From the NCBI GenBank assembly GCA_902796295.1, contig CADBOL010000071.1:1-14656 (forward strand): a stretch of DNA of 14,656 bases, in the 5' to 3' direction. Under the pieces are notes generated by a model that was not told where the DNA came from, did not search any database, and worked only from the letters and a program-made list of their open reading frames with translations. Position numbers and translations under genes: made by a program. The stretch is from Oscillospiraceae bacterium (GTDB taxonomy: Bacteria > Bacillota > Clostridia > Oscillospirales > Acutalibacteraceae). Shown here in pieces: positions 1,432-14,656 of this stretch (within the stretch, counting starts at the first letter, position 1; each line of letters opens with the position of its first letter).

Positions 1432-1460
1432 TTGAAACAATTTGATATGTGTGTTAGAAT
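1432..1460 (+). promoter_or_regulatory. Putative extended -10 promoter of the FKP-like gene
   Basis: TTGAAA (1432-1437), a 17-base spacer and TAGAAT (1455-1460), with TGT immediately before the -10 (extended -10, TGn). This is close to the vegetative sigma-A consensus at ideal spacing. The TTG of the -35 is also the first possible start codon of the downstream reading frame. If the promoter is real, that codon lies upstream of the transcript, which argues for the ATG at 1501 as the true start. Confidence 0.6.
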
Positions 1461-1500
1461 ATGTCCGTTATATTTTTATTATATACAGCGAGAAAAACAC

Positions 1501-4443
1501 ATGTTACAGAATCCGAACAATAATAATCAGAGAATTCAGACCATGTTCCTTGAGCAGTCATTTTTTGACTCTCAGGCGGACTGGCTCCGTTCGCTCAAAA
1601 ATCCGGATGCTCCGCATTTTGATGTTGTTGTAATCACCGCGTCAAACGAGCATCAGGTGGAGATTTTCCGTACACGGCTTGAGATGTCCGATTTACCGGA
1701 AAGAACGGATTTTGTAATTATACCCGATAAAAACGGCGAGAGAATCGGCTCCGGCGGAGCGACTCTTGAGGCTGTAAGATACATAGGAGAGAAATACGGC
1801 AGCTTCAGAAATCTGCGCGTCGCGGTAATCCACAGCGGAGGCGACGGAAAAAGAATACCCAATTACTCCGCCATGGGCAAGCTGTTTTCTCCTGTTCCGC
1901 GCCTTCTGCCCTGCGGCAGGCCGTCAACTCTTTTTGATGAAATCATGATTTCAATAGCCGGTGTTCCCTCGAGAATCAAGGAGGGAATGCTCATCCTTTC
2001 CGGAGATATTCTGCTTCTTTTCAACACTCTGCAAATTGATTTCTGCGGACACGGCGCCGCGGCTCTGGCTTTTAAAGAGAGTGTCAAAACCGGTGTCAAC
2101 CACGGCGTTTATCTTCAGGGAAAGGAAGACAATGTTGCGTATTTTCTTCATAAGCAGAGCGAGGAATACCTCAGAAGCACCGGCGCTGTCAATGAGCAGG
2201 GAAATGTTTCAATAGACACGGGCGCGGTGATTTTTGCTCCCGATATTCTTGAGAGCATGTATGAGCTTGTCGATACACCCGAAAAAGCGGAGAAATATAT
2301 AAATACCGAAACCAGGCTTTCTTTTTACGCTGATTTTCTCTATCCTCTCGCGGAGGAATCAACTCTTGAGGAATACTATCTTGAAAAGCCGGAGGGAGAG
2401 TTTAACGGCAGCCTCAGACAGGCGCGCACCGTTCTGTGGCAGACACTCAGGCAATACCGCCTGCAGCAGATAAATCTTTCACCGTCCAAGTTCATTCATT
2501 TCGGCACCACAGCTCAGGTTATGGAGCTTATGAATGACTACAGCAGCCGCTATTCTTCGCTCGGCTGGAGCCGTGTGGTTAATTCTTTTGTTCCGGACGG
2601 AACAGCGGCGTATAACAGCCTTTGCGATCCGCTCTCGGAGGTGGGCAGCGGAAGCTATCTTGAGTGTTCACACATACTGGGAAACTCAAAAATCGGCAGA
2701 AACTGTTTGATTTCATCTACCGAACTCAGGGATAAAACCGTTCCCGACAATACGGTTCTGCACTGTCTGAAACTGCTTGACGGCAGATTTGTCTGCAGGA
2801 TATACGGCGTGGATGACAATCCGAAAGAGGATAAGATTTTCGGAATACCTTTCCGGGAAATTGACTTCATCAACGCGGATTCGCTGTGGGATGCCGAAAT
2901 TTACCCGGTGTGTGAAAACGTCTCTCTCGCGGTTGATTCCGCTCTGGAGCTGTACGATATAATCACGGGCGGAAAAGCTGCCACGGAATCATATAAATCA
3001 AAGGAAAAGAAATCGCTGTGGAGCGGTTTCAACGAGGCGGACCCTGCAGCTCTCAATCAATGGCTCAACCGTATGGATGAGCTTATAAAGATGCACAAGA
3101 TTGAATCGCTTATTGATTCCGGAATTCCGGCTTTCGAAACAGGCAGGATTATAACCTCCGGCTCTCTGACAGGGATTCAGCTTGAGTGGCTTGAAAGCAG
3201 AGTGAGCAGCCTTGATTTGTCAAAGCCCGAAGGTCTTGCCAAGGCAATCAGACTTTACAGATATACAGATTTTTCCGGAGATAATGGCAGGGAAAAACAG
3301 TGGTTCCGTCTTATTTCTCAGGCAATTCAAAGCGTGACGACGCGCGGATTCAAGCTGAGCGGAAAAGCTGATAGCAAAGTTACGGTGAGGCTTCCTCTGC
3401 GTGTGAATTTCGGCGGCGTATGGTCCGACACACCCCCGTTTTGTCTTGAAAACGGCGGAAAAGTGCTCAACTGCGCGATTAAGATTAACGGAGATTTTCC
3501 GGTGAATGTCACGGTGGAGCGCATTGATGAGAAAAAAATAGTTTTCGACTCCGGAGACATGAATGTTCACGGTGAATTTACCGGGATTTCGGACCTGCAG
3601 GATTTCGGGAATCCCTATGACTCGTTTGCTCTGCAGAAAGCTTGTCTGCTTGTGTGCGGCATAATACCGCGCGAAGGCGGAAATCTCGCTGAGATTCTTG
3701 ATTATTACGGCTCGGGATTCAGAATTGATTCATTTGTTACGGGAGTTCCCAAGGGCAGCGGGCTCGGCACATCCTCAATCCTTGCAGCCGCGTGTTCAAA
3801 GGCGATTCTTGAATTTTTCGGTATCTCATATACCCTTGATGATTTATACGGATATGTGCTCGCGGAGGAGCAGATAATGTCAACCGGAGGCGGCTGGCAG
3901 GATCAGGCCGGAGGACTGACTCACGGGCTGAAGCTGGTTTCGGGTGAGCCCGGCATACATCAGAAAATATCAGCGGAAAAAATCAGCCTGAGCGAGGAAA
4001 CAAAAAAGGAATTCTCCGACAGATTCTGTCTTGTATACACAGGGCAGAGAAGACTCGCGAGAAATCTTCTCAGAGATGTTGTGGGCCGCTATATCAGCAA
4101 TGAACCCGAGTGTGTCAAAGCATATAATGAGATTATGCCGGTTGCGGAAAAAATGAAATCAGCCCTTGAATCGGGCGATATTGATGAATTCGCGCATCTG
4201 CTCGATTATCATCTCGGGCTCAGCAAAATGATTAATCCCGAAACGGTCAATACGCTGATAGAGGATATATTCGCCACTGTTGAGGATATGATCGACGGCA
4301 GATTTGTCTGCGGAGCCGGAGGAGGGGGATTTCTCCAGGTTATCCTGAAAAAAGGCGTTTCGAAGGAGGATCTGCACCGACGCCTCAAGGATGAATTCGG
4401 TGATTTTCCGATAGATGTTTATGACTGCGAACTCCTTTTGTAA
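1501..4443 (+). CDS. fkp: FKP-like bifunctional fucokinase / GDP-fucose pyrophosphorylase
   Basis: A 980-residue two-enzyme protein, close to the roughly 950 residues of Bacteroides Fkp. The N-terminal half is a nucleotidyltransferase: GSGGAT (83-88), IHSGGDGKR followed by PNYSAMGKLF (110-128) and the metal-binding SGD (167-169) match fucose-1-phosphate guanylyltransferases. Around residues 385-410 there are hexapeptide-like repeats suggesting the left-handed beta-helix linker. The C-terminal part is a GHMP kinase: RVNFGGVWSDTPP (634-646), the ATP loop PKGSGLGTSS (750-759), GGGWQDQ (796-802) and GAGGGGF (938-944). In known proteins the kinase makes L-fucose-1-phosphate and the other half makes GDP-L-fucose, in the cytosol. 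Sugar specificity cannot be read from sequence; D-arabinose or a heptose is possible. The frame is open from a TTG at 1432, but that lies in the likely promoter; the ATG at 1501 is chosen although its ribosome site (GCGAGAAAA) is weak. It is a single-gene transcript closed by a terminator. Confidence 0.9.
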   Translation: MLQNPNNNNQRIQTMFLEQSFFDSQADWLRSLKNPDAPHFDVVVITASNEHQVEIFRTRLEMSDLPERTDFVIIPDKNGERIGSGGATLEAVRYIGEKYGSFRNLRVAVIHSGGDGKRIPNYSAMGKLFSPVPRLLPCGRPSTLFDEIMISIAGVPSRIKEGMLILSGDILLLFNTLQIDFCGHGAAALAFKESVKTGVNHGVYLQGKEDNVAYFLHKQSEEYLRSTGAVNEQGNVSIDTGAVIFAPDILESMYELVDTPEKAEKYINTETRLSFYADFLYPLAEESTLEEYYLEKPEGEFNGSLRQARTVLWQTLRQYRLQQINLSPSKFIHFGTTAQVMELMNDYSSRYSSLGWSRVVNSFVPDGTAAYNSLCDPLSEVGSGSYLECSHILGNSKIGRNCLISSTELRDKTVPDNTVLHCLKLLDGRFVCRIYGVDDNPKEDKIFGIPFREIDFINADSLWDAEIYPVCENVSLAVDSALELYDIITGGKAATESYKSKEKKSLWSGFNEADPAALNQWLNRMDELIKMHKIESLIDSGIPAFETGRIITSGSLTGIQLEWLESRVSSLDLSKPEGLAKAIRLYRYTDFSGDNGREKQWFRLISQAIQSVTTRGFKLSGKADSKVTVRLPLRVNFGGVWSDTPPFCLENGGKVLNCAIKINGDFPVNVTVERIDEKKIVFDSGDMNVHGEFTGISDLQDFGNPYDSFALQKACLLVCGIIPREGGNLAEILDYYGSGFRIDSFVTGVPKGSGLGTSSILAAACSKAILEFFGISYTLDDLYGYVLAEEQIMSTGGGWQDQAGGLTHGLKLVSGEPGIHQKISAEKISLSEETKKEFSDRFCLVYTGQRRLARNLLRDVVGRYISNEPECVKAYNEIMPVAEKMKSALESGDIDEFAHLLDYHLGLSKMINPETVNTLIEDIFATVEDMIDGRFVCGAGGGGFLQVILKKGVSKEDLHRRLKDEFGDFPIDVYDCELLL

Positions 4444-4502: not shown

Positions 4503-4531
4503 GCGGGGCTGTAAAAGCCCCGCATTTTTTT
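4503..4531 (+). terminator. Rho-independent terminator after the FKP-like gene
   Basis: An 8-base-pair perfect stem, GCGGGGCT (4503-4510) with AGCCCCGC (4516-4523), closes a five-base loop GTAAA. It is followed by an A and seven T residues (4525-4531), then more T-rich sequence. It is a textbook intrinsic terminator and separates the FKP-like gene from the downstream operon. Confidence 0.93.
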
Positions 4532-4558: not shown

Positions 4559-4587
4559 TTGATTTAAGTGTCTATATATGATAATAT
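4559..4587 (+). promoter_or_regulatory. Putative extended -10 promoter of the radical SAM / glycosyltransferase operon
   Basis: TTGATT (4559-4564), a 17-base spacer and TAATAT (4582-4587), with TGA directly before the -10 (TGn). It is the only good promoter seen between the terminator and the membrane-protein genes, in a very AT-rich stretch where chance matches are common. If used, transcription would begin near 4594, downstream of the ATG at 4578. Only about 35 bases of leader would precede the TTG at 4629, which leaves no room for a riboswitch. Confidence 0.45.
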
Positions 4588-4628
4588 ATATTGAATATCT
4601 ATCGTCAACTGATGCGAGGTACAGTGTT

Positions 4629-5825
4629 TTGAATAAAAATCCGGACATTCAAAGAATAAAACAGAATACCGTGCTTCTTTATCTTATTCCTCTGCTGTTG
4701 CTCGGCGGCAATCTTATATATTTGGTTTTCAGCGGGCAGATAGAGAGTGTCCGCGGATACTATCTTATTCATTATCTCTATGATTACAGCCACGGATTTG
4801 TGGCGAGAGGGCTTGTCGGTGAAGTCCTCAGCCGTTTTTTTGATATCATCACAGATGAGATTACATATGGCGTGATGATACTCTTTGATTCTTTGCTTGT
4901 AATTTCATCATCTCTTTGTTTCGGCAAAGCTCTCAGCAGGGTGAAAGATGACAGCTTCCGTTTTAACTGCATACTCTTTCTGATTGTTTTAATCTGCATT
5001 TTTCCTTTTTCATTCAGAAGCTATCATATGGATTTCAAGCTTGATAAGCTGCTCTGGGCTCTTACATTGTTTGCAGTGTTTATCGCGGATAATAAAATCG
5101 GTATTTTCTTAACCCCGTTTATCTGCGCGGCCGCGACAATGGTAAATCCCGTCTTTCTGTTTTGCAGTATGATTCTGATTTCAATCATATTGCTGCAAAA
5201 GCTCTGTGACAGCAAATTCTCCGCAAAGCATATTGTCATTTGTTTTGTTGCTTATTCCGCTATGATTGCGATAGGAATCTACGGAACACTCAATGAAAAG
5301 AATCTTGGATTTGACAACCCTACCGAGATGTTAAATTATTATTTTTCCAGGTATTCGGGTATTATTCCGGATGATGTTGCGGAAAGATTTGTAACAGAAT
5401 GGATATTTGAATATTTCGACTCACCCGGAACAATAATAAAGAAAGCATACGACATTTATCTTGTTCAATGGAATAATAAACCTATTGTCATTCTCAACGC
5501 TATATTCTTTGCTGTTCCCGTTTACACATTTCTTTCAATATTCTGGATTGACGTGATTAAGGCGGAAGAGAAGAAATTTCAGAAATTTATTTTCTTTCTC
5601 TGTCTGATTTCTCCGGTTGTGCTTATTCCTCCCATAGTGCTTTCATGGGAGTCATCCAAATATTTTGCCAATAACATAATGGTCCAGCTGGGTCTTATCA
5701 TCTATTATCTTGCAAATAACAACCAGTCCGTATTGTCCGCAGTGTATAAACTTAAAAAAAGATTCGGAAATAACTTTGTCATTTGTTCCGCTGCGGCTTT
5801 GTATCTTGCGTTATTGATAAAGTGA
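4629..5825 (+). CDS. Polytopic membrane protein, possibly GT-C glycosyltransferase-like
   Basis: A 398-residue integral membrane protein with about nine to ten hydrophobic helices, near residues 15-34, 80-98, 112-129, 140-153, 157-189 (long enough for two), 201-219, 285-306, 319-339, 349-362 and 382-397. A charged segment follows the first helix and contains DYSHGFVARGLVGE (52-65), the most conserved-looking part. An acidic residue in the first external loop is a hallmark of GT-C glycosyltransferases that use polyprenol-phosphate sugars. That is only an analogy; I do not recognise the family. A second soluble loop covers about 220-284. The frame is open from an ATG at 4578, which has no ribosome site and lies in the predicted promoter. 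The TTG at 4629 with GAGG (4616-4619) nine bases upstream is preferred. It heads the operon, and the next gene starts after 5 bases. Confidence 0.72.
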   Translation: MNKNPDIQRIKQNTVLLYLIPLLLLGGNLIYLVFSGQIESVRGYYLIHYLYDYSHGFVARGLVGEVLSRFFDIITDEITYGVMILFDSLLVISSSLCFGKALSRVKDDSFRFNCILFLIVLICIFPFSFRSYHMDFKLDKLLWALTLFAVFIADNKIGIFLTPFICAAATMVNPVFLFCSMILISIILLQKLCDSKFSAKHIVICFVAYSAMIAIGIYGTLNEKNLGFDNPTEMLNYYFSRYSGIIPDDVAERFVTEWIFEYFDSPGTIIKKAYDIYLVQWNNKPIVILNAIFFAVPVYTFLSIFWIDVIKAEEKKFQKFIFFLCLISPVVLIPPIVLSWESSKYFANNIMVQLGLIIYYLANNNQSVLSAVYKLKKRFGNNFVICSAAALYLALLIK

Positions 5826-5830
5826 GTTAT

Positions 5831-6883
5831 ATGAAACAGAATCGAAAGACAATTTTATACTGCATTATTTACCTGTTTTTCGGAACGGTCAGACTGTTAT
5901 TTTACGGCGGCATAAGCTTTGACCGTATGATAAACGAGCGCACCTTTCCCGACGCCGGAACGTGTCTGCATATTCTGCTGATTGTTCTTCTTGCGGCCAT
6001 GCCGGTGGTTACATATCTCAATTACCGGAGAAAACAGTCTGCGGGTCTTTTGCTTCTTTTCGGCCTTATCGTCTGCAATCCCGAGATGATTACTTTCAGC
6101 TCCGATCCCGTTAAAGCCGTTACTCTAATTTTGCTTTTTGTGTATCTCAACCTTAAAGCTCTTGACGGAAAATTCGGCGGTATTATCCCGACAGCCGTGT
6201 TTCTTGCCGTATGCGTTTTTCTTGTTCCGGGAAACATATTCGGCATAGCTCCGCTGATTGCCGCCGTTTATTATCTGACAGATATCAGGAGAATCAATAT
6301 TGTTTCTGCGGCGGTTTTCGCCCTGTGCTCGGGTGCGGCTGTAGCGGGAACCCGCCTGCTTATGAAGGCGGATATTCCTTATTGGCTCAGATCGGCGTGG
6401 GAGTTTTATTTTTCAAACGGGCTCAGATTCAGGATTCCGAATATCATCAGATATCTTCTTCTGATTGCAATTGCGGTTTGTCTTATCCGGAGCTTTATTC
6501 TCGCGTTTAAAGAGTATAAGAGCCTCGGAGCTCCGGAGGATAACAGAAAGAAATATCAGGCGGCACTGATTAAGCAGAAACAGCTGCCTTACAGAAACAA
6601 ATGTATTGTTCTTTCCGTAATGATTGCCGGATTTTTCATTTCGGCATTCGGCGAGCTGTTTACGCTTTGCGGCAGCACAGCCGTTCTGTTCATTCTTGTA
6701 TCTCTGCTGATACTTTCCCGAAGCGGTGATTACAGAATCGATAAAGCACTGATTAAAATCGACGGCTATTTTGAAAACCATCTTATTATCTGGGCCGCAA
6801 TACTGTATCTTGCTGCGCATATGCACGATTATTTCGGCTCCGGAAACTCTTTTTATTCAACGGTCACAGAATTCTTCTTTTAA
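5831..6883 (+). CDS. Polytopic membrane protein of unknown function
   Basis: A 350-residue protein with about ten to eleven predicted membrane helices, roughly at 7-25, 45-62, 70-86, 95-108, 117-132, 135-149, 156-174, 204-220, 258-276, 280-296 and 317-331. A basic cytosolic-looking loop lies at 222-257, rich in Lys and Arg. No catalytic motif or family is recognised. Size and topology would fit a glycan transporter, polymerase or GT-C-like enzyme, but nothing decides between these. The start is the ATG at 5831, five bases after the stop of the preceding membrane protein, with a weak AAGTGAG ribosome site in that gene's end, suggesting translational coupling. A longer frame reaching back to 5783 would overlap the previous gene and is not needed. 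The pairing suggests the two membrane proteins work together. Confidence 0.72.
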   Translation: MKQNRKTILYCIIYLFFGTVRLLFYGGISFDRMINERTFPDAGTCLHILLIVLLAAMPVVTYLNYRRKQSAGLLLLFGLIVCNPEMITFSSDPVKAVTLILLFVYLNLKALDGKFGGIIPTAVFLAVCVFLVPGNIFGIAPLIAAVYYLTDIRRINIVSAAVFALCSGAAVAGTRLLMKADIPYWLRSAWEFYFSNGLRFRIPNIIRYLLLIAIAVCLIRSFILAFKEYKSLGAPEDNRKKYQAALIKQKQLPYRNKCIVLSVMIAGFFISAFGELFTLCGSTAVLFILVSLLILSRSGDYRIDKALIKIDGYFENHLIIWAAILYLAAHMHDYFGSGNSFYSTVTEFFF

Positions 6884-6921
6884 TGATTGAATAACCGAAA
6901 CCCCGGACGGAAGATAAGGAT

Positions 6922-8838
6922 ATGAAGAAAAACATTTATCTGGTTCAGGCGGGCTGCCTTTACGGCAACACCTACTATCTGCCTTACGCGGTGGGTATGC
7001 TGGCGGCCTTCGCATTCAGTGACCCGCAGGTGAGCGGGGCGTACGAACTGAAAAGGATGATTTACCGGCTTGAGGATATCGATGAGAGTATCGATTCCCT
7101 CGAGAATCCTGCGTTTATGGGTTTTTCAAATTCAATCTGGAATTATGAGTATAATCTCGTCTATGCCGAAAAGCTGAAAAAAAGATATCCGGACTGTATA
7201 ATAGAATTCGGCGGGCATCATGTGCCTCCCACAACCGAGTATCTTGAGAAATATCCGTTTATAGATGTACTCATTCACCGCAAGGGCGAGGAGGCATTCC
7301 GCGATGTTCTTGTCGCGCTTGACAGGGGAGAGGATCTGGCAGATATTCCGAATATATCATTCAGAAATAAGACGGGAGAGCCCGTACAGACTCCGTTTAA
7401 AGCAATAACCATATCCGATTATCCGTCGCCTTACCTGAGCGGATACTTTGACGATATTATCAAGGATAAAAACTACAGATTTTCATGTGTGCTCGAAAGC
7501 AACCGCGGCTGCCCTTACAACTGCAGCTACTGCGACTGGGGTGAGCTTCATTCCAAGGTCCGTCTGTTTCCGCTCGAAAAAGTGCTTGCGGAGCTCGAGT
7601 GGATGGGCGAGCATGAGATGGAATTTGTTTATCTTGTTGACGCAAACTTCGGTATGTTTGAGCGCGATGAGATAATTGCCCGGAAGCTTGTCGAATTAAA
7701 AAACACAAAGGGGTATCCCAACAGGCTTCAGGTTTCGTACGCAAAGAATGAAGTGGAGCGAACTTTCAGGATTAATAAACTCCTTGCCGATAACGGAATC
7801 GGAAAGGGAGCGACTCTGTCTTTGCAGACTTTGAATCCGGAAGCTCTGGAGAACATAGGCAGAGTGAATATTTCCCTGCAGCAATATGCCGACCAGATTG
7901 CGAGATACAGGGAAGCGGGCATTTCAACTTATACAGAGCTTATTCTCGGCCTTCCGGGGGAAACAAAGGAAAGCTTCTGCGAGGGTCTCTGCAAGGTTCT
8001 TGAGTTCGGTCAGCACAGTTCAATCAGCGCTTATTACTGCGAGCTGCTTCCCAATTCCAGGATGAGCACTCCCGAATTTATCGAGAAGTATAAAATCAAA
8101 ACCGTACGCACCTCTCTCAATCAGTATCACTGCGAAGTTATGGAGGATACAATATCCGGCTTCTCAAATATCATTGTCGGTACTTATACAATGAGTGTGC
8201 GCGATTGGGTTGAATGCAATGAGTTTTCAACCTGTGTGCAGAGTTTCCATCACTTCGGGATTCTTCAGTGTTTCGCAATGTATATCAACAAAGAGCTCGG
8301 CGTATCGTATTATGATTTTTACAGCGCTCTTTATGATTATATCGTGAATAAAAGCTCATTTCTCAGGCCGATATTCAAGCTTGTCTCGGATGTGCTCAAC
8401 GGATTTGTCAATGACAAATGTACTCTCACGGTTACAGACTCTCATTTCGGCAGCATAACCTATCCTCTTGAGGAGGCTGTTTTTCTCAAATGCCTCTATG
8501 ATTCGGATGAGTTTTACGCCGATGTTTCGGATTTTATCCAGATGTATCTTAAGGATGAGTACCTTGTTTCCGAAATAATGAGATATCAGCGCTCTGTTGT
8601 GTTAACTCCCGGGAAAAACGATTTTTCAGTGAGCTTTGATTTTGATTTCTGCAGTTATTTCAATGCGATTCTCAGAAATGAACACATACCGCTTGAGAAG
8701 AAGAGAATAACCTACAGATTTCATACTCCCTTTGCGATTGACAACTGGGTGGAATACGCAAAAGAGATAGTCTGGTACGGTAGAAGAAATAACAGGATGA
8801 TGTTTTACAGCAGGCCGAACACTATAGAATCAGTGTGA
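6922..8838 (+). CDS. B12-binding-type radical SAM protein, copy 1
   Basis: A 638-residue protein. Residues 1 to about 170 form a Rossmann-like cobalamin-binding half: KNIYLVQAG start, GFSNSIWNYEYN, EFGGHHVP (95-102). The radical SAM core follows with Cys197, Cys201 and Cys204 in NRGCPYNCSYCDWG, binding the [4Fe-4S] cluster that cleaves S-adenosylmethionine, and GLPGET (343-348) later in the barrel. After about residue 414 comes an extension ending in a YGRR motif, shared with copies 2 and 3. Two features stand out. The GEGE usual at the end of the cobalamin-like half reads RKGE (120-123), and no DxHxxG cobalamin-ligand motif is present, as in many methylase-type members. The ATG at 6922 has GGAAG eight bases upstream. 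It begins 38 bases after the membrane protein, the largest gap in the operon. Substrate and reaction are unknown; methyl transfer or C-C bond formation are the family's known options. Confidence 0.9.
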   Translation: MKKNIYLVQAGCLYGNTYYLPYAVGMLAAFAFSDPQVSGAYELKRMIYRLEDIDESIDSLENPAFMGFSNSIWNYEYNLVYAEKLKKRYPDCIIEFGGHHVPPTTEYLEKYPFIDVLIHRKGEEAFRDVLVALDRGEDLADIPNISFRNKTGEPVQTPFKAITISDYPSPYLSGYFDDIIKDKNYRFSCVLESNRGCPYNCSYCDWGELHSKVRLFPLEKVLAELEWMGEHEMEFVYLVDANFGMFERDEIIARKLVELKNTKGYPNRLQVSYAKNEVERTFRINKLLADNGIGKGATLSLQTLNPEALENIGRVNISLQQYADQIARYREAGISTYTELILGLPGETKESFCEGLCKVLEFGQHSSISAYYCELLPNSRMSTPEFIEKYKIKTVRTSLNQYHCEVMEDTISGFSNIIVGTYTMSVRDWVECNEFSTCVQSFHHFGILQCFAMYINKELGVSYYDFYSALYDYIVNKSSFLRPIFKLVSDVLNGFVNDKCTLTVTDSHFGSITYPLEEAVFLKCLYDSDEFYADVSDFIQMYLKDEYLVSEIMRYQRSVVLTPGKNDFSVSFDFDFCSYFNAILRNEHIPLEKKRITYRFHTPFAIDNWVEYAKEIVWYGRRNNRMMFYSRPNTIESV

Positions 8839-8851
8839 ATCAGGTGATAAT

Positions 8852-9601
8852 TTGGATTCATTCAAAACGGTATTTACGGGCGTTACAGTATTTATTCTGA
8901 CAACTAACGAAACGGATGCTCTGTCCGAAACTGTTAAGCGGGTATTTGAATACTGCCCCGAAGAATCACTTTACAGAATTACTATTCTTCCTATAAGCAA
9001 AGAATGCCCCGGCGCAGAGCAGGCAATGAGGATTGCGGATAATGATAAAACGGGGAAAATCGATGTTTACTATCAGAACAATCCCGGAATTGATAACTGC
9101 ATCGCGGAAACTGTATGTCAAGTTGAAAGTTCTCATTTTATTTATATCGCGGCAGATCTTGAAATGGATCCGTCAAATATCAGGATATTTGTGGAAAAAG
9201 CCAGAGAAAATCCGGACAGAATAGTATGCGCATCCAAATGGATAAAAGGTTCAAGAGTTTCCGGATATGGAAAGACAAAAGAATTCACAAACAGATTTCT
9301 CAATTTTTTAACCTCCGCTTTATACTTGAGAAAGGTAACCGATGTATTCAATATATATCAGATTTATCCTTCGGAACTTGCGAAAAGAATAAGAGTTGTA
9401 AAAAAAGATGAGGTTGGTTATCTTTTTACGTTGGTTGTGCTGAGACTCGGAATAGAATATGAGGAGATTCCCACCGTTTATATTCAAAGGAGAGACGGCA
9501 AACCGTTTGTTTCATTCAAGGAGCTTATGCGAATCGGAATGAGATTCTCTGCTTTTATTCTGAGAACCAGATTTACGCCTAAAAAAAGAATTCTGAAATA
9601 A
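8852..9601 (+). CDS. Family 2 glycosyltransferase, polyprenol-phosphate sugar synthase-like
   Basis: A 249-residue GT-A fold glycosyltransferase. The N-terminus (VTVFILTTNETDALSETV, 11-28) corresponds to the nucleotide-binding 'IPTYNE' segment of family 2 enzymes. AADLEMDP holds Asp102 and Asp106 at the place of the DxD-like metal site. The later KGSRVSGYGK and the R-R-x-G-K-P stretch near the end resemble dolichyl/undecaprenyl-phosphate mannosyl- or glucosyltransferases. The DxD region is not canonical (A-D-L-E-M-D), so donor and even activity are uncertain. There is no membrane helix; a basic C-terminus (PKKRILK) could touch the membrane surface. The TTG start at 8852 follows an AGGTGA site with a short spacer, 13 bases after copy 1; the first in-frame ATG would remove the donor-binding segment. 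It sits between radical SAM copies 1 and 2, so it is likely part of the same pathway. The DNA looks more AT-rich than copy 1. Confidence 0.82.
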   Translation: MDSFKTVFTGVTVFILTTNETDALSETVKRVFEYCPEESLYRITILPISKECPGAEQAMRIADNDKTGKIDVYYQNNPGIDNCIAETVCQVESSHFIYIAADLEMDPSNIRIFVEKARENPDRIVCASKWIKGSRVSGYGKTKEFTNRFLNFLTSALYLRKVTDVFNIYQIYPSELAKRIRVVKKDEVGYLFTLVVLRLGIEYEEIPTVYIQRRDGKPFVSFKELMRIGMRFSAFILRTRFTPKKRILK

Positions 9602-9631
9602 GTAAGCACTCCCGGTTGAAAGGTATTATTG

Positions 9632-11536
9632 ATGAAAAACATCTACATGGTCCAGCCAAATTCCCAATACGGCAATTCGGTTTATTTTCCTTATGCCGTA
9701 GGTTCACTTATCGCCTACGCATTTAAAAATGAGGAAATCAAAAAGGAATACGATTTCATTTCATTTTTCTACAAGAAGGAAAATATTGAAGAATGCATAA
9801 AACAAATTGACAGCCCGTTTGCTGTCGGTTTCTCCTGCTATGTCTGGAATTATGAATACAATAAAGCGTTTGCCCGGGCCATAAAAGAAAAATGGCCCGA
9901 GTGCAGGATAATATTCGGCGGCCATCAGGTCAATGAAAAAAGCGGTATTCTCGAGGAAGATTACATTGACTATATAATACTCGGAGAAGGGGAGCAGAGC
10001 TTTGAAAGTCTTTTGCTTGCTCTTGCGGGTAAGTGCGATATCAAATCAATCCCAAATCTGATGTACAGAGAAGACGGCGTCTTCACAAGCACGGAAAAGA
10101 TGCTCACTCAGATTCCTCACAGAGTCTCACCCTATGTTGAGGGATATTTTGATGAGATAGTCAAAAATGAAGAGCTTGAGTTTTCCGCGATACTTGAAAC
10201 CAACAGGGGATGCCCCAACAGATGCGCATTCTGCGACTGGGGCAATATAAAATCAAGAGTCCGCCTTTACAATATGGAACTGGTCAAAAAAGAAATTGAC
10301 TGGTTCAGTGAGAACAGAATTGAATATGTTTATGCGGCGGATGCGAATTTCGGCCTGTTTCCGCGCGATGAGGAAATAATAGACTACATAATCCAAAAGC
10401 ACAGCGAAAACGGTTATCCGCAGAAATTTCAGGCTACCTACTCAAAAAACAATCCCGAAGTAGTTTTCAGAATAAACAAGCGTCTCAATGAGGCCGGTAT
10501 GAGCAAGGGCGCGACTCTGTCGTTCCAGTCTATGAATGAGGGAGTACTGAAAAACATCGGCAGGGAGAATATGCCTCTTGACAACTATAAGAAACTCATG
10601 GGTATGTATAACACCGAAGGTATCGCCGCGTATTCGGAGATAATAATAGGCCTGCCCGGCGAAACATATGATACCATGAAGGAAGGCATAGAAACGCTTC
10701 TTGAATGCGGACAGCACAGTTCGATAAACTTCTTTAACTGCGAGCTGCTCAAGAACTCGATCATGGGAAGCCCGGATTATGTTGAGCAGTATGATATTAA
10801 GACAGCGGTTACCGAGCAGCACCAGTATCATGTTATTCCCTCAAAAAACACGGTTAAGGAGTTTTCCGACATTGTCATTTCCACATCATCAATGACCACG
10901 GAGATGTGGATAGATATCAATATTTTTTCCGTTTTTGTCAGGGCGTTTCATAATCTCGGCCTGCTTCAGTGTGTGGCGATTTATCTTTATTATGAGGAAG
11001 GAATAAAGTATTCCGATTTTTACGAGAGACTCATTGCTTTTTCAAAAGAGAATCCGTCTTCCGTCTGCGGCAGGGTTTATGACTTTCTCAAAGGGAAATA
11101 CACCGAGGTTTCACAAAGCAGCGGTTCGCTCACCTGTGTAATACCTGAATTCGGGGAGCTCCTGTGGCCGCTTGAGGAGGCGTCATTTCTCAAAGTAATT
11201 CTCGAATATGATAAATTCTATGATGAGATAACCGGATTTATCGCCTCTTATTTCAAGGATGAAAAGATTTTTAACGAGCTTATGGCATATCAGAAGTCAA
11301 TCGTCAAAACACCTTACAAAAACTCGATTGAACTTTCTCTCGGATTTGATTTTCCGGCATATTTTACCTCTGTATATGAAAATAACTACTCCCCGCTGAA
11401 ACAATCGGACTGCCGTATTCTTATTGATATGCGCGATGTTCCGTCCGGTTTTCCGGAGTATGCTGAGCGGACGGTCTGGTACGGGAGAAAGGGAAGCAAA
11501 AACACAGCAAGCAATATAAGCTATCTCGAAAGATGA
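9632..11536 (+). CDS. B12-binding-type radical SAM protein, copy 2
   Basis: A 634-residue paralogue of copy 1 with the same layout. The cobalamin-binding-like half has KNIYMVQPN, FGGHQV and an intact GEGE (118-121). The radical SAM core has Cys194, Cys198 and Cys201 in NRGCPNRCAFCDWG, with GLPGET at 340-345. The C-terminal extension runs from about 410 and ends in a VWYGRK motif. Like copy 1 it has Asp-Trp right after the third cluster cysteine, and it shares KGATLS before the second half of the barrel, so copies 1 and 2 form a pair. The frame opens one codon earlier at a TTG (9629); the ATG at 9632 with GAAAGG about eight bases upstream is preferred. It follows the glycosyltransferase by 30 bases and precedes copy 3 by 10. 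The enzyme class is clear; substrate and reaction are not. Confidence 0.9.
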   Translation: MKNIYMVQPNSQYGNSVYFPYAVGSLIAYAFKNEEIKKEYDFISFFYKKENIEECIKQIDSPFAVGFSCYVWNYEYNKAFARAIKEKWPECRIIFGGHQVNEKSGILEEDYIDYIILGEGEQSFESLLLALAGKCDIKSIPNLMYREDGVFTSTEKMLTQIPHRVSPYVEGYFDEIVKNEELEFSAILETNRGCPNRCAFCDWGNIKSRVRLYNMELVKKEIDWFSENRIEYVYAADANFGLFPRDEEIIDYIIQKHSENGYPQKFQATYSKNNPEVVFRINKRLNEAGMSKGATLSFQSMNEGVLKNIGRENMPLDNYKKLMGMYNTEGIAAYSEIIIGLPGETYDTMKEGIETLLECGQHSSINFFNCELLKNSIMGSPDYVEQYDIKTAVTEQHQYHVIPSKNTVKEFSDIVISTSSMTTEMWIDINIFSVFVRAFHNLGLLQCVAIYLYYEEGIKYSDFYERLIAFSKENPSSVCGRVYDFLKGKYTEVSQSSGSLTCVIPEFGELLWPLEEASFLKVILEYDKFYDEITGFIASYFKDEKIFNELMAYQKSIVKTPYKNSIELSLGFDFPAYFTSVYENNYSPLKQSDCRILIDMRDVPSGFPEYAERTVWYGRKGSKNTASNISYLER

Positions 11537-11546
11537 GGTTTACAGT

Positions 11547-13472
11547 TTGAAAAACGTTTATCTTATACAGCCCGGTCAGGTGCTCAGCGGCGAAATATTC
11601 CTGCCCTATTCAATAGGTGCGCTGGCCGCTTATGCCTGGCAGTCTGAAGAGATAAAAAAAGAATATTGCCTCGAAAAATTCGTTTTTATGAAGGATCCGT
11701 TTGATGAGGTGCTCGGCAATATGGAGTCGCCTTATCTTGTCGGCTTTTCTTCATACATGTGGAATATCAATTATAATCTTGCTCTTGCCGAATCAGTCAA
11801 AAAAATGTGGCCGGAAGCAATTGTCGTTTTCGGCGGCCCGCAGGTTCCGGATGATACGGAGTATCTGGAACAGTATCCGTTTATTGATATCCTTATGCAC
11901 GGTGAGGGCGAAAAGACATTCCGCTCGCTTCTTGAAACGCTTGCCGAAGATGAAAGCCTCTCGGCAGTCAATAACATTTCATTCAGAAAAGACGGAGATA
12001 TCATAAGGACTCAAAAGCTTTTGAACCGGGACGTGTCGGATTTTAATTCACCTTATTCATCGGGTATGTTTGATGACATTGTCAATAACCCGAAATACTC
12101 ACATCTGCGGTTTGATGCCGTTCTTGAAACCAACAGAGGCTGCCCTTACGGATGCATTTACTGCTGCTGGGCAGGTACCGAAAAAAATTTCAGACTTTTT
12201 AACCTCGAGAGAGTTAAAGCGGATATTGACTGGATGGCAAAAAACAAAATAGTTTATTGCATAAGTGCCGATTCAAATTTCGGAATACTGCCGCGGGATA
12301 AGGAAATAGCAGAATATATTGTTGAAACAAAAAGGAAATACGGATTTCCGGCTAAGTTTGAAACATCGCTTGCAAAGAATAAGGATGAAACCACATTTGA
12401 AATTGCAAGACTTCTGGAAACAGAAAAAATGAACTGCGGCATCAGCGTTGCAGTTCAGAGCATGGATCCGACCGTTCTTGAAAATATCGGCAGGAAGAAT
12501 ATTTCGATTGACAATTTTGCCGAGCAGATGAAGCTTTATCAGAATGAAAACATATCAACTTATACCGATTTCATTCTCGCTCTGCCCGGAGAGACCTACG
12601 AGAGTTTTTGCCGGGGACTCTTCTGTGCTATTGAAGCGGGGCAGCATTCATCGATAAATGTTCATCCCTGTGAGGTGCTTCCCAATACTGTACTTTACCT
12701 GAAAGAAACACGGGAGAAATACGGTATAAAAACGAGAGTGTCCACCCTCTGTCAGGAACGTACAAGCCCGTCATCGGATATTGTTAACAGCACAAGGTCC
12801 GAAATAATTATTGCTACCGATACGATGAACTCCGGCGATTGGTGCAAGGCCATGCGCTTCTCTTCATTTGTTCAGTCTTTTCACTCTTTCGGAATGGTTA
12901 AGTATTTAGCTGTCTATTTCAGAAGAAACGGAATCCCGTTTCTTGATTTCTATACTGATTTATTTGAAAAAATAGAGAAGAGCAACGGGTTTATTAATTC
13001 CGTAATACGCAGCGTATGTAAAAACATAGATTTGTTTGTTGAGGGAAAAACCGATCTTTATTATATTGATGAAAAGGTTCCCGAAGTTTATATACCTTTT
13101 AAAATCGGAATTTTTCTTGCGTGTGTTACTGATCTTGAAAGATTCTATTCCGAGATATCGGAGTTCGTTTCGTTCAGGTTTGAGGATGAATCAGTTCGTG
13201 AAAGCCTCATCGGTTTTCAGAGAGCTTCTGTTAAGTATCCCGGTGAAAAAGAGGAAGAAATCAGTTTTGAGTATGACTGGCCGGATTATTTTTCCGATAT
13301 CATCGATATATCATACAAACCTGTCAAGAAGAAAAAAACAGTTTTGATAAGGGACAGCTGCCCTCAGGAAACCTGGCAGGATTATACACTGTACAATATT
13401 TTTTACGGAAAGCGTGAGTGTAAAATGCTGCATAGGTTTACATATGCAAACAGAAAGGAAACAGAATCATGA
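11547..13472 (+). CDS. B12-binding-type radical SAM protein, copy 3
   Basis: A 641-residue paralogue. The N-terminal half carries KNVYLIQPGQ, VFGGPQVPDD and HGEGE (118-122). The cluster motif is NRGCPYGCIYCCWAG with Cys199, Cys203 and Cys206, plus a fourth, adjacent Cys207 that copies 1 and 2 lack. The SAM-side motif reads ALPGET (345-350). The C-terminal extension from about 411 contains FVQSFHSFG and ends with a FYGKR motif. The start is a TTG at 11547; GAGG (11535-11538), overlapping the stop codon of copy 2, sits eight bases upstream, and the predicted N-terminus aligns with the other copies, so this unusual start is well supported. Its end overlaps the start of copy 4 by four bases (ATGA), showing co-translation. 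Function is unknown beyond the cobalamin-type radical SAM class. Confidence 0.9.
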   Translation: MKNVYLIQPGQVLSGEIFLPYSIGALAAYAWQSEEIKKEYCLEKFVFMKDPFDEVLGNMESPYLVGFSSYMWNINYNLALAESVKKMWPEAIVVFGGPQVPDDTEYLEQYPFIDILMHGEGEKTFRSLLETLAEDESLSAVNNISFRKDGDIIRTQKLLNRDVSDFNSPYSSGMFDDIVNNPKYSHLRFDAVLETNRGCPYGCIYCCWAGTEKNFRLFNLERVKADIDWMAKNKIVYCISADSNFGILPRDKEIAEYIVETKRKYGFPAKFETSLAKNKDETTFEIARLLETEKMNCGISVAVQSMDPTVLENIGRKNISIDNFAEQMKLYQNENISTYTDFILALPGETYESFCRGLFCAIEAGQHSSINVHPCEVLPNTVLYLKETREKYGIKTRVSTLCQERTSPSSDIVNSTRSEIIIATDTMNSGDWCKAMRFSSFVQSFHSFGMVKYLAVYFRRNGIPFLDFYTDLFEKIEKSNGFINSVIRSVCKNIDLFVEGKTDLYYIDEKVPEVYIPFKIGIFLACVTDLERFYSEISEFVSFRFEDESVRESLIGFQRASVKYPGEKEEEISFEYDWPDYFSDIIDISYKPVKKKKTVLIRDSCPQETWQDYTLYNIFYGKRECKMLHRFTYANRKETES

Positions 13473-14656
13473 AAAAAGGAAAAGTCTATCTTGCTCAGCC
13501 GAGCGATAACAAGCAGAATAAATCCACCTTTCTGCCTTATTCTGCGGGATGTCTGGCTGCGTATGCCTTTGAAAAAGAGGATATTCGAGAGAATTTCGAT
13601 TTTTGTGGTTTCGTTTATATCAAAGAAACGGTTGAAAAGAGCATGGAGCTTATTGATGATCCATGCTTTGTCGGCTTCTCATGTTATATGTGGAATGTGG
13701 ACTATAATCTTGCTCTGGCGAAAACAGTAAAAGAAAAATACCCCGAAGCTGTTATTTCCTTCGGGGGTCCTCAGATACCGGACGATACAGAGTATCTTGA
13801 AAAATATGATTTTATCGATGTGCTCACTCACGGAGAAGGAGAAGTCGTTTTCTATGAGCTGCTTTCCGCAATGTCCCGCTGCGAAAAATTTTACGATATT
13901 AAAAATATATCTTTCAGGGACGGGGAAAAAATAATAAAGAATGAAAAACAACCCGCTTGTGATTTACTTGACTTCCCGTCGCCGTACATATGCGGATACT
14001 TTGATTACATAGTAAATGATCCTGAGCTTGAGGGAACACAGTTTGACACGGTTATGGAAACCAATCGCGGGTGTCCCTACAAATGTATTTATTGCTGCTG
14101 GGGGAAAAACAGGTCAACAGTCAGACCTTTTTCAATGGAAAAAGTAAAGGCTGAACTTCTTTGGCTGGCAGAGCATAAAATATCATTTTGTTTCTGCGGC
14201 GATGGTAATTTCGGAATTCTCGATCGTGACGAAGAAATAGCCGATTATGTTATCGAATTGAAAAAAAAGTACGGTTATCCGGAGAAATTCGAAACTTACA
14301 CAGAGAAAAACAAAAGAGATTTAACATTTAAAATAAATCAAAAACTTGAGAGCGTGGGTTTGAATCGCGGCGTTTCCATAGCCGTCCAAAGTCTTTCGCC
14401 TGAGGTCCTGAAAATAATCGGCAGGAAAAATCTTTCCCATGAAGAATTATCCCGCGAGTTGAAAAAATACCGTGAAAATGACATTTTCACTTATACCGAT
14501 TTGATTCTCGGATTGCCGGGAGAAACCTTCGACAGCTTTTGCAAAGGCCTTTTTGAAGTGATTGAGGCCGGACAGCATATAGCAATCAATATCAATTATT
14601 GCGAACTGCTGCCTAACACTATTTTAAGATCGCCCGAGATAGTCGAAAAATATAAA
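13469..14656 (+). CDS. B12-binding-type radical SAM protein, copy 4 (cut by window end)
   Basis: The frame is open for 396 codons to the last base of the window with no stop, so the gene continues beyond it; about 240 residues are missing if it matches its paralogues. It shows KVYLAQPS, SFGGPQIPDD and HGEGE (121-125). The cluster motif is NRGCPYKCIYCCWGK with Cys202, Cys206 and Cys209, plus the extra Cys210 shared with copy 3, and GLPGET is at 348-353. After that it has GQHIAI where copies 1 to 3 have GQHSSI. The ATG overlaps the stop of copy 3 in ATGA, and AAGGAA (13455-13460) lies eight bases upstream. Whether its C-terminal extension is present cannot be seen. Confidence 0.9.
   Translation, partial: MKKGKVYLAQPSDNKQNKSTFLPYSAGCLAAYAFEKEDIRENFDFCGFVYIKETVEKSMELIDDPCFVGFSCYMWNVDYNLALAKTVKEKYPEAVISFGGPQIPDDTEYLEKYDFIDVLTHGEGEVVFYELLSAMSRCEKFYDIKNISFRDGEKIIKNEKQPACDLLDFPSPYICGYFDYIVNDPELEGTQFDTVMETNRGCPYKCIYCCWGKNRSTVRPFSMEKVKAELLWLAEHKISFCFCGDGNFGILDRDEEIADYVIELKKKYGYPEKFETYTEKNKRDLTFKINQKLESVGLNRGVSIAVQSLSPEVLKIIGRKNLSHEELSRELKKYRENDIFTYTDLILGLPGETFDSFCKGLFEVIEAGQHIAININYCELLPNTILRSPEIVEKYK

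Follow-up and report, generated by a model that had tools for sequence, protein, structure and literature searches.

TokK/CysS-type radical SAM arrays beside putative lipid-linked-sugar genes in an uncultured clostridial genus

TokK, which functions in C6 alkylation of carbapenems, and CysS, of the cystobactamid pathway, are cobalamin-dependent radical S-adenosylmethionine (SAM) enzymes; the available portions of the source papers describe both as building alkyl groups on antibiotics by repeated methylation. Enzymes of this type are encoded in a tandem array on a contig from an Oscillospiraceae bacterium (GenBank assembly GCA_902796295.1, contig CADBOL010000071.1), all 14,656 nt of which were analysed (hereafter the window). 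The encoded proteins, A to D, have the cobalamin domain, radical SAM core, CxxxCxxC motif, tryptophan under the cobalt and, apart from the truncated D, C-terminal domain found in TokK and CysS, and their genes are accompanied by one for a glycosyltransferase family 2 (GT2)-like protein and two for membrane proteins. We propose, with a probability of roughly 0.58, that A to D C-methylate an activated or lipid-linked heptose or 6-deoxyhexose, which a GT-C-type protein then attaches outside the cell, as part of an envelope glycan pathway. Computation provides the family assignment of the enzymes, the predicted GT-C fold, the kinship of the GT2-like protein, the evidence that the genes co-occur and are linked, and the sugar-activation genes of relatives.

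The array genes lie on the + strand and encode A (6922-8838, 638 aa), B (9629-11536, 635 aa, likely start ATG 9632), C (11547-13472, 641 aa) and the first 396 aa of D (13469-14656), which runs off the contig end. A sequence-only reading of this DNA had recognised four cobalamin-type radical SAM paralogues in one direction, with the GT2 gene after the first and two polytopic genes at the head, and the coordinates agree with that layout. Each protein has the Pfam Radical_SAM and B12-binding domains and the CxxxCxxC motif, although for the B12-binding domain only two of them (38.8 and 37.6 bits) pass the Pfam cut-off and the other two (26 and 27.6 bits) stay below it. Pairwise identity among the four is 35-52%, which rules out assembly duplication as their source. 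The best NCBIfam model for all of them is NF033712 (KedN5); membership was rejected because scores of 231-266 bits fall far under the curated cut-off of 700. A profile built from 19 family members and compared with solved structures matched TokK with E 5.5e-151 over positions 5-583 of 640, the last part of the profile being uncovered, and CysS with E 3.2e-86, while A alone matched TokK with E 8.3e-95 (A residues 19-565 against TokK residues 22-590 of 681). The C-terminal domain of TokK has a homologous counterpart in A and in the family profile; D ends before that region. By these comparisons TokK and CysS are the closest solved relatives of A to D.

A search for relatives returned 238 proteins, of which 211 were full-length once 13 duplicates and 14 shorter pieces had been set aside. 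The CxxxCxxC motif, part of which belonged to the search pattern, is present in 211 of 211, as is a tryptophan at the place of TokK Trp76, which is invariant in alignment A1 with the register taken from the A-TokK alignment. The available portions of two papers place this residue (Trp76 in TokK, Trp75 in CysS) under the cobalt (PMC13331322, PMC12846815). Given the TokK/CysS match and this conserved tryptophan, C-methylation is likely the default chemistry for A to D, in keeping with the sequence-only reading. Lipid chain joining was also among the chemistries suggested there, and nothing was seen that points to it. In C and D, cysteine replaces the aspartate after the third cluster cysteine (CW instead of DW), a change found in 5 of the 211 relatives. 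A tree of 51 proteins resolves many old paralogous groups common to several species and places C and D in a clade of their own; relatives of these two in other array loci appeared among loci fetched later.

Arrays of this kind are a trait of the genus to which the window belongs. The TokK-like family occurs in 27 of 45 genus genomes at E <= 1e-50, with 3-8 matches each and 146 in total, some of them partial and at contig ends. At E <= 1e-60, and with the window genome included, it was detected in 2 of 295 genomes sampled from the order and 1 of 398 from the phylum, where scoring covered up to 4 and up to 3 candidates per genome, respectively. Profiles for the GT2-like and GT-C-like proteins each pick the same 27 genomes and no other, so that arrays mostly lacking glycosyltransferase and membrane genes are the opposite of what was found. 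No GT2 match in the genus (30 in all) is more than 3 kb from a TokK-like gene, and for 26 the distance is at most 83 bp; of the 28 GT-C matches, 23 lie at up to 12 kb and one at 40 kb, and the other four sit on contigs for which the list used has no TokK-like gene. Other families deviate from this pattern (fucokinase 11/45, SIS_2 31/45, the HddC model at a loose cut 29/45). A second genus of the same family has TokK-like and GT2 genes, adjoining each other, in the same two of 39 genomes.

A further 73 named loci were taken from the best 80 matches in a named collection. Their titles are those of Clostridia, Clostridiales, Clostridiaceae, Oscillospiraceae, Ruminococcaceae, Clostridium sp. and Bacillota metagenome genomes, many from the ruminant gut. 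Two or more TokK-like open frames are present in 57 of these loci and four or more in 19, with a maximum of seven, in a six-frame count that would register a gene broken in two twice. GT2 was found in 50 loci and GT-C in 22; 30 have a kinase or guanylyltransferase for sugar activation, and 61 have at least one of these genes. None of the 51 GT2 frames is more than 4.8 kb from a TokK-like frame, and 42 are within 200 bp. The earlier suggestion that partner genes accompany the array therefore stands at the genus level (27 of 27) and is weaker for single stretches.

The GT2-like protein (8852-9601, +, 249 aa) is encoded between A and B, and its open reading frame (ORF) scores just above the Pfam cut-off (25.6 against 23.3 bits). 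The family profile matches dolichol-phosphate-mannose synthase (DPMS; 5mlz) with E 1.2e-22 across the catalytic domain, positions 5-235 of 243. The nucleotide and metal motifs, DDxS and DxD, are altered: DDxS is absent, and the first aspartate of DxD is present in 4 of 38 members, the second in 38 of 38. On this sequence evidence we call the protein DPMS-like and not a DPMS member.

The first membrane protein (4578-5825, +, 415 aa) has a predicted GT-C fold, and GT-C enzymes are glycosyltransferases that use lipid-linked sugars; judged from the model, it is a probable glycosyltransferase of this type. The solved relatives of both the GT-C-like and the GT2-like proteins include enzymes that handle polyprenyl-phosphate lipids. 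For the second polytopic membrane protein (5831-6883, +, 350 aa; the ORF opens at 5783, with an ATG at 5831), no detectable sequence relative was present among the loci searched, and its AlphaFold2 model is poor, with a predicted local distance difference test score (pLDDT) of 57.6. Membrane proteins of similar size adjoin the GT-C gene in six related loci and are only 12-21% identical to this second protein. Of the two membrane genes, then, only the first belongs to a recognisable family, which co-occurs with the array, and the second has no detectable sequence relative among the loci searched. The DPMS-like and GT-C partners and their co-occurrence with the array support the earlier view that the substrates belong to a carrier-linked or membrane-linked class.

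In relatives, genes for sugar activation belong to the array gene set. An HddC-type guanylyltransferase scoring 174-200 bits occurs in 16 array-positive genomes, always near a TokK-like gene, and in none of 18 array-negative ones; its open frame is at least 414 aa in 14 of these 16 best HddC genomes, a length sufficient for a fusion to GmhB, and the one example scanned is an HddC-GmhB fusion. Seven of the high-scoring HddC loci were read, and they contain an HddA-like kinase in 7/7, a cupin in 7/7 and an epimerase in 6/7; in loci L126 and L128 a cupin is present, with no kinase in the stretch read. Six more positive genomes have a lower-scoring HddC-like gene with a frame of 424-431 aa, which in five lies within 2 kb of a TokK-like gene, and in four more the gene set includes a divergent fucokinase-like protein of about 780-840 aa. 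Counting these from hand-picked rows, all 26 other positive genomes have an activation gene, and in 25 it is no more than 2.6 kb from a TokK-like gene.

We hypothesize that GDP-heptose or GDP-6-deoxyhexose would be made and then passed to polyprenyl phosphate. At the stage of either the GDP-sugar or the polyprenyl-phosphate sugar, a TokK/CysS-type enzyme would use methylcobalamin and a 5'-deoxyadenosyl radical to methylate an unactivated sp3 carbon of the sugar. Separate paralogues may serve separate positions or residues, possibly in an iterative manner, and a methyl group added to a terminal sugar carbon would make the chain longer. As the accessible parts of their source papers describe TokK and CysS as iterative, four enzymes could add more than four methyl groups. 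Handling of the polyprenyl-phosphate sugar within the cell would fall to the GT2-like protein, while attachment of the branched sugar to an outside acceptor may be the task of the GT-C protein together with the second membrane protein.

Several points weigh against this proposal. That A to D transfer methyl groups, that a sugar is their substrate, in which order the steps run and that the last one takes place outside are what we infer from sequence and gene context. With DDxS lost and the first DxD aspartate in so few members, the GT2-like protein may not be a glycosyltransferase, and looking for the catalytic acid that the GT-C-like protein should have in its first external loop gave no clear residue (Asp69 is present in 13 of 24 members; Asp156, in 23 of 24, was not placed). 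Twelve of the 73 named loci show no partner gene. The HddC frames of genomes G006 and G014 are short (239 and 246 aa) and are without the GmhB part, and among the 18 array-negative genomes six have an HddC-model match (E <= 1e-20, at lower scores) and five a fucokinase. The window's own genome stands apart from the other positives: neither an activation gene of the array-linked type nor an HddC match at E <= 1e-20 was found there, and its sole fucokinase-type gene groups with outside-array copies, although absence proves little in an incomplete genome. The co-occurrence counts are not corrected for phylogeny and are given no probability, as the genomes share ancestry and array-linked members supplied the profiles.

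The array could also make a small secreted, antibiotic-like natural product that the sugar genes merely glycosylate. The pathways in which the available source portions place TokK (carbapenem) and CysS (cystobactamid) favour this, as does a phytoene-desaturase-like oxidoreductase with a ferredoxin-reductase-like protein near the array in some sets. We nonetheless regard it as unlikely, because GT-C enzymes generally build envelope glycans and no non-ribosomal peptide synthetase, polyketide synthase or ribosomally synthesized and post-translationally modified peptide gene was present among the recurrent neighbour families scanned (sugar kinases, guanylyltransferase, cupin, epimerase, peptidase, hydroxyacid dehydrogenase and VTT protein; other recurrent families were not scanned). 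Guanylyltransferase genes adjoining the arrays, and the low scores of lipid-type models relative to TokK and KedN5, make it quite unlikely that the radical SAM enzymes act on the lipid carrier or another membrane lipid instead of a sugar, even with weak matches to the HpnJ, HpnR and ladderane-type models and with polyprenyl-phosphate lipid handlers among the solved relatives of the GT2 and GT-C proteins. Some or all paralogues might instead carry out another radical reaction on the sugar, such as epimerisation, dehydration or rearrangement, with no methyl transfer. OxsB is, in the available portion of its source, a cobalamin radical SAM enzyme that is not a methylase, and the separate clade of C and D with its rare cysteine would suit such a departure; this is improbable in view of the near full-length TokK-type sequence and the invariant tryptophan, which favour methyl transfer. 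A more elaborate and rather doubtful scheme, a dedicated assembly line for branched sugars, would have a soluble GT2-fold protein that is no longer a glycosyltransferase present the polyprenyl-phosphate sugar to interchangeable TokK-type methylases, one for each position, so that heavily C-alkylated or chain-extended (octose-like) sugars would diversify the surface of these uncultured gut bacteria and vary with the paralogues that a species retains.

The operon consists of seven + strand genes in the ORF list, tightly packed from position 4578 to the contig end, with junctions of 5, 38, 13, 30 and 10 nt followed by a 4-nt overlap; read by eye, several starts are preceded by Shine-Dalgarno-like stretches. 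On the sequence, it begins downstream of a strong terminator-like site (4503-4523, +) with an 8-pair stem, 7 of the pairs G-C, and a T tract, which is the first-listed such site in the window, where 27 were found against 13.1 expected by chance. The window is an entire contig (G000:C71) of a 2.04-Mb genome in 344 contigs that is 79% complete, and the fourth radical SAM gene is cut by the contig end, so the earlier count of 'at least four' is right and no further sequence can be gained by extension. In the region 1-1505 of another contig of this genome (L135, G000:C101; 6.9 kb), the first feature is the C-terminal 111 aa of a TokK-type protein. The fragment is nearest to L069|6 and then to several relatives of C and D, and a second GT-C-like gene lies at 381-1505 on the opposite strand. 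It could be the missing end of D or belong to a different gene, and C101 may continue the operon.

Upstream of the terminator-like site, positions 1432-4443 (+) encode a 1003-aa fucokinase/fucose-1-phosphate guanylyltransferase-like protein. It matches PF07959 (276.1 bits) and PF00288 (GHMP kinase, 37.6 bits) above their cut-offs, NF009948 at 401.8 bits, under its cut-off of 721, and 5yys/9iit with E 6.4e-59. In the tree it groups with six copies from outside arrays (98/99), apart from 11 array-linked copies; the copies of the array-bearing loci L055 and L078 fall on its side of the tree on long branches, with unsure placement. It is 51-57% identical to copies in five array-free genus genomes and 46% identical to an outside-array copy in one array-positive genome. 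As the sugar-activation gene of the operon it was rejected: given the tree grouping and the terminator-like site between them, it is probably a neighbour outside the operon. A metallophosphoesterase gene (190-1320, -, PF00149) has no visible link to the operon.

Other loci hold further radical SAM and redox genes near such arrays. Locus L033 (G008:C34:1-20000) has eight radical SAM genes in 15 kb (1885-16563): three of TokK type, three of about 495 aa, of which the single one scanned resembles HpnJ/BchE, and two of about 610 aa with PQW near the start. Both of the non-TokK classes turn up repeatedly near TokK-type arrays elsewhere. A phytoene-desaturase-like flavin adenine dinucleotide (FAD) protein beside a ferredoxin-reductase-like protein also recurs (L029, 12906-15478; L042, 1359-4119; L137, 7804-9686), near arrays and, in one case, beside a fucokinase gene in an array-free genome.

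If C-methylation of a surface sugar is correct, the arrays would make branched surface sugars by radical chemistry, a route not described so far, and would supply many new C-methylases of varied specificity. The array is a clear trait within the genus, and its product can be sought by glycan analysis. Searches of the open-licence PubMed Central (PMC) library showed no description of a gene set that unites TokK-type paralogues with a GT-C protein, a GT2 of DPMS-like type and activation genes for heptose or fucose. The closest described systems each cover a part of this set. TokK and CysS come from antibiotic pathways, whereas here their relatives number several per positive genome and stand amid sugar genes. 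The GDP-D-glycero-D-manno-heptose pathway (HddA, HddC, GmhB), which serves surface polysaccharides, has HddA-like and HddC-like counterparts beside the arrays of relatives, but these score under the curated cut-offs, are paired with radical SAM arrays and are absent from the window. The pairing of a polyprenyl-phosphate-sugar GT2 with a GT-C-fold protein is that of DPMS/ArnC-type enzymes with ArnT, PimE and PMT types, but the GT2 protein in the window differs in its motifs and has no predicted membrane helix. By sequence, then, these are enzymes of known kind, and in one genus of uncultured Clostridia the TokK/CysS type has been expanded and tied gene for gene to an apparent lipid-linked-sugar pathway.

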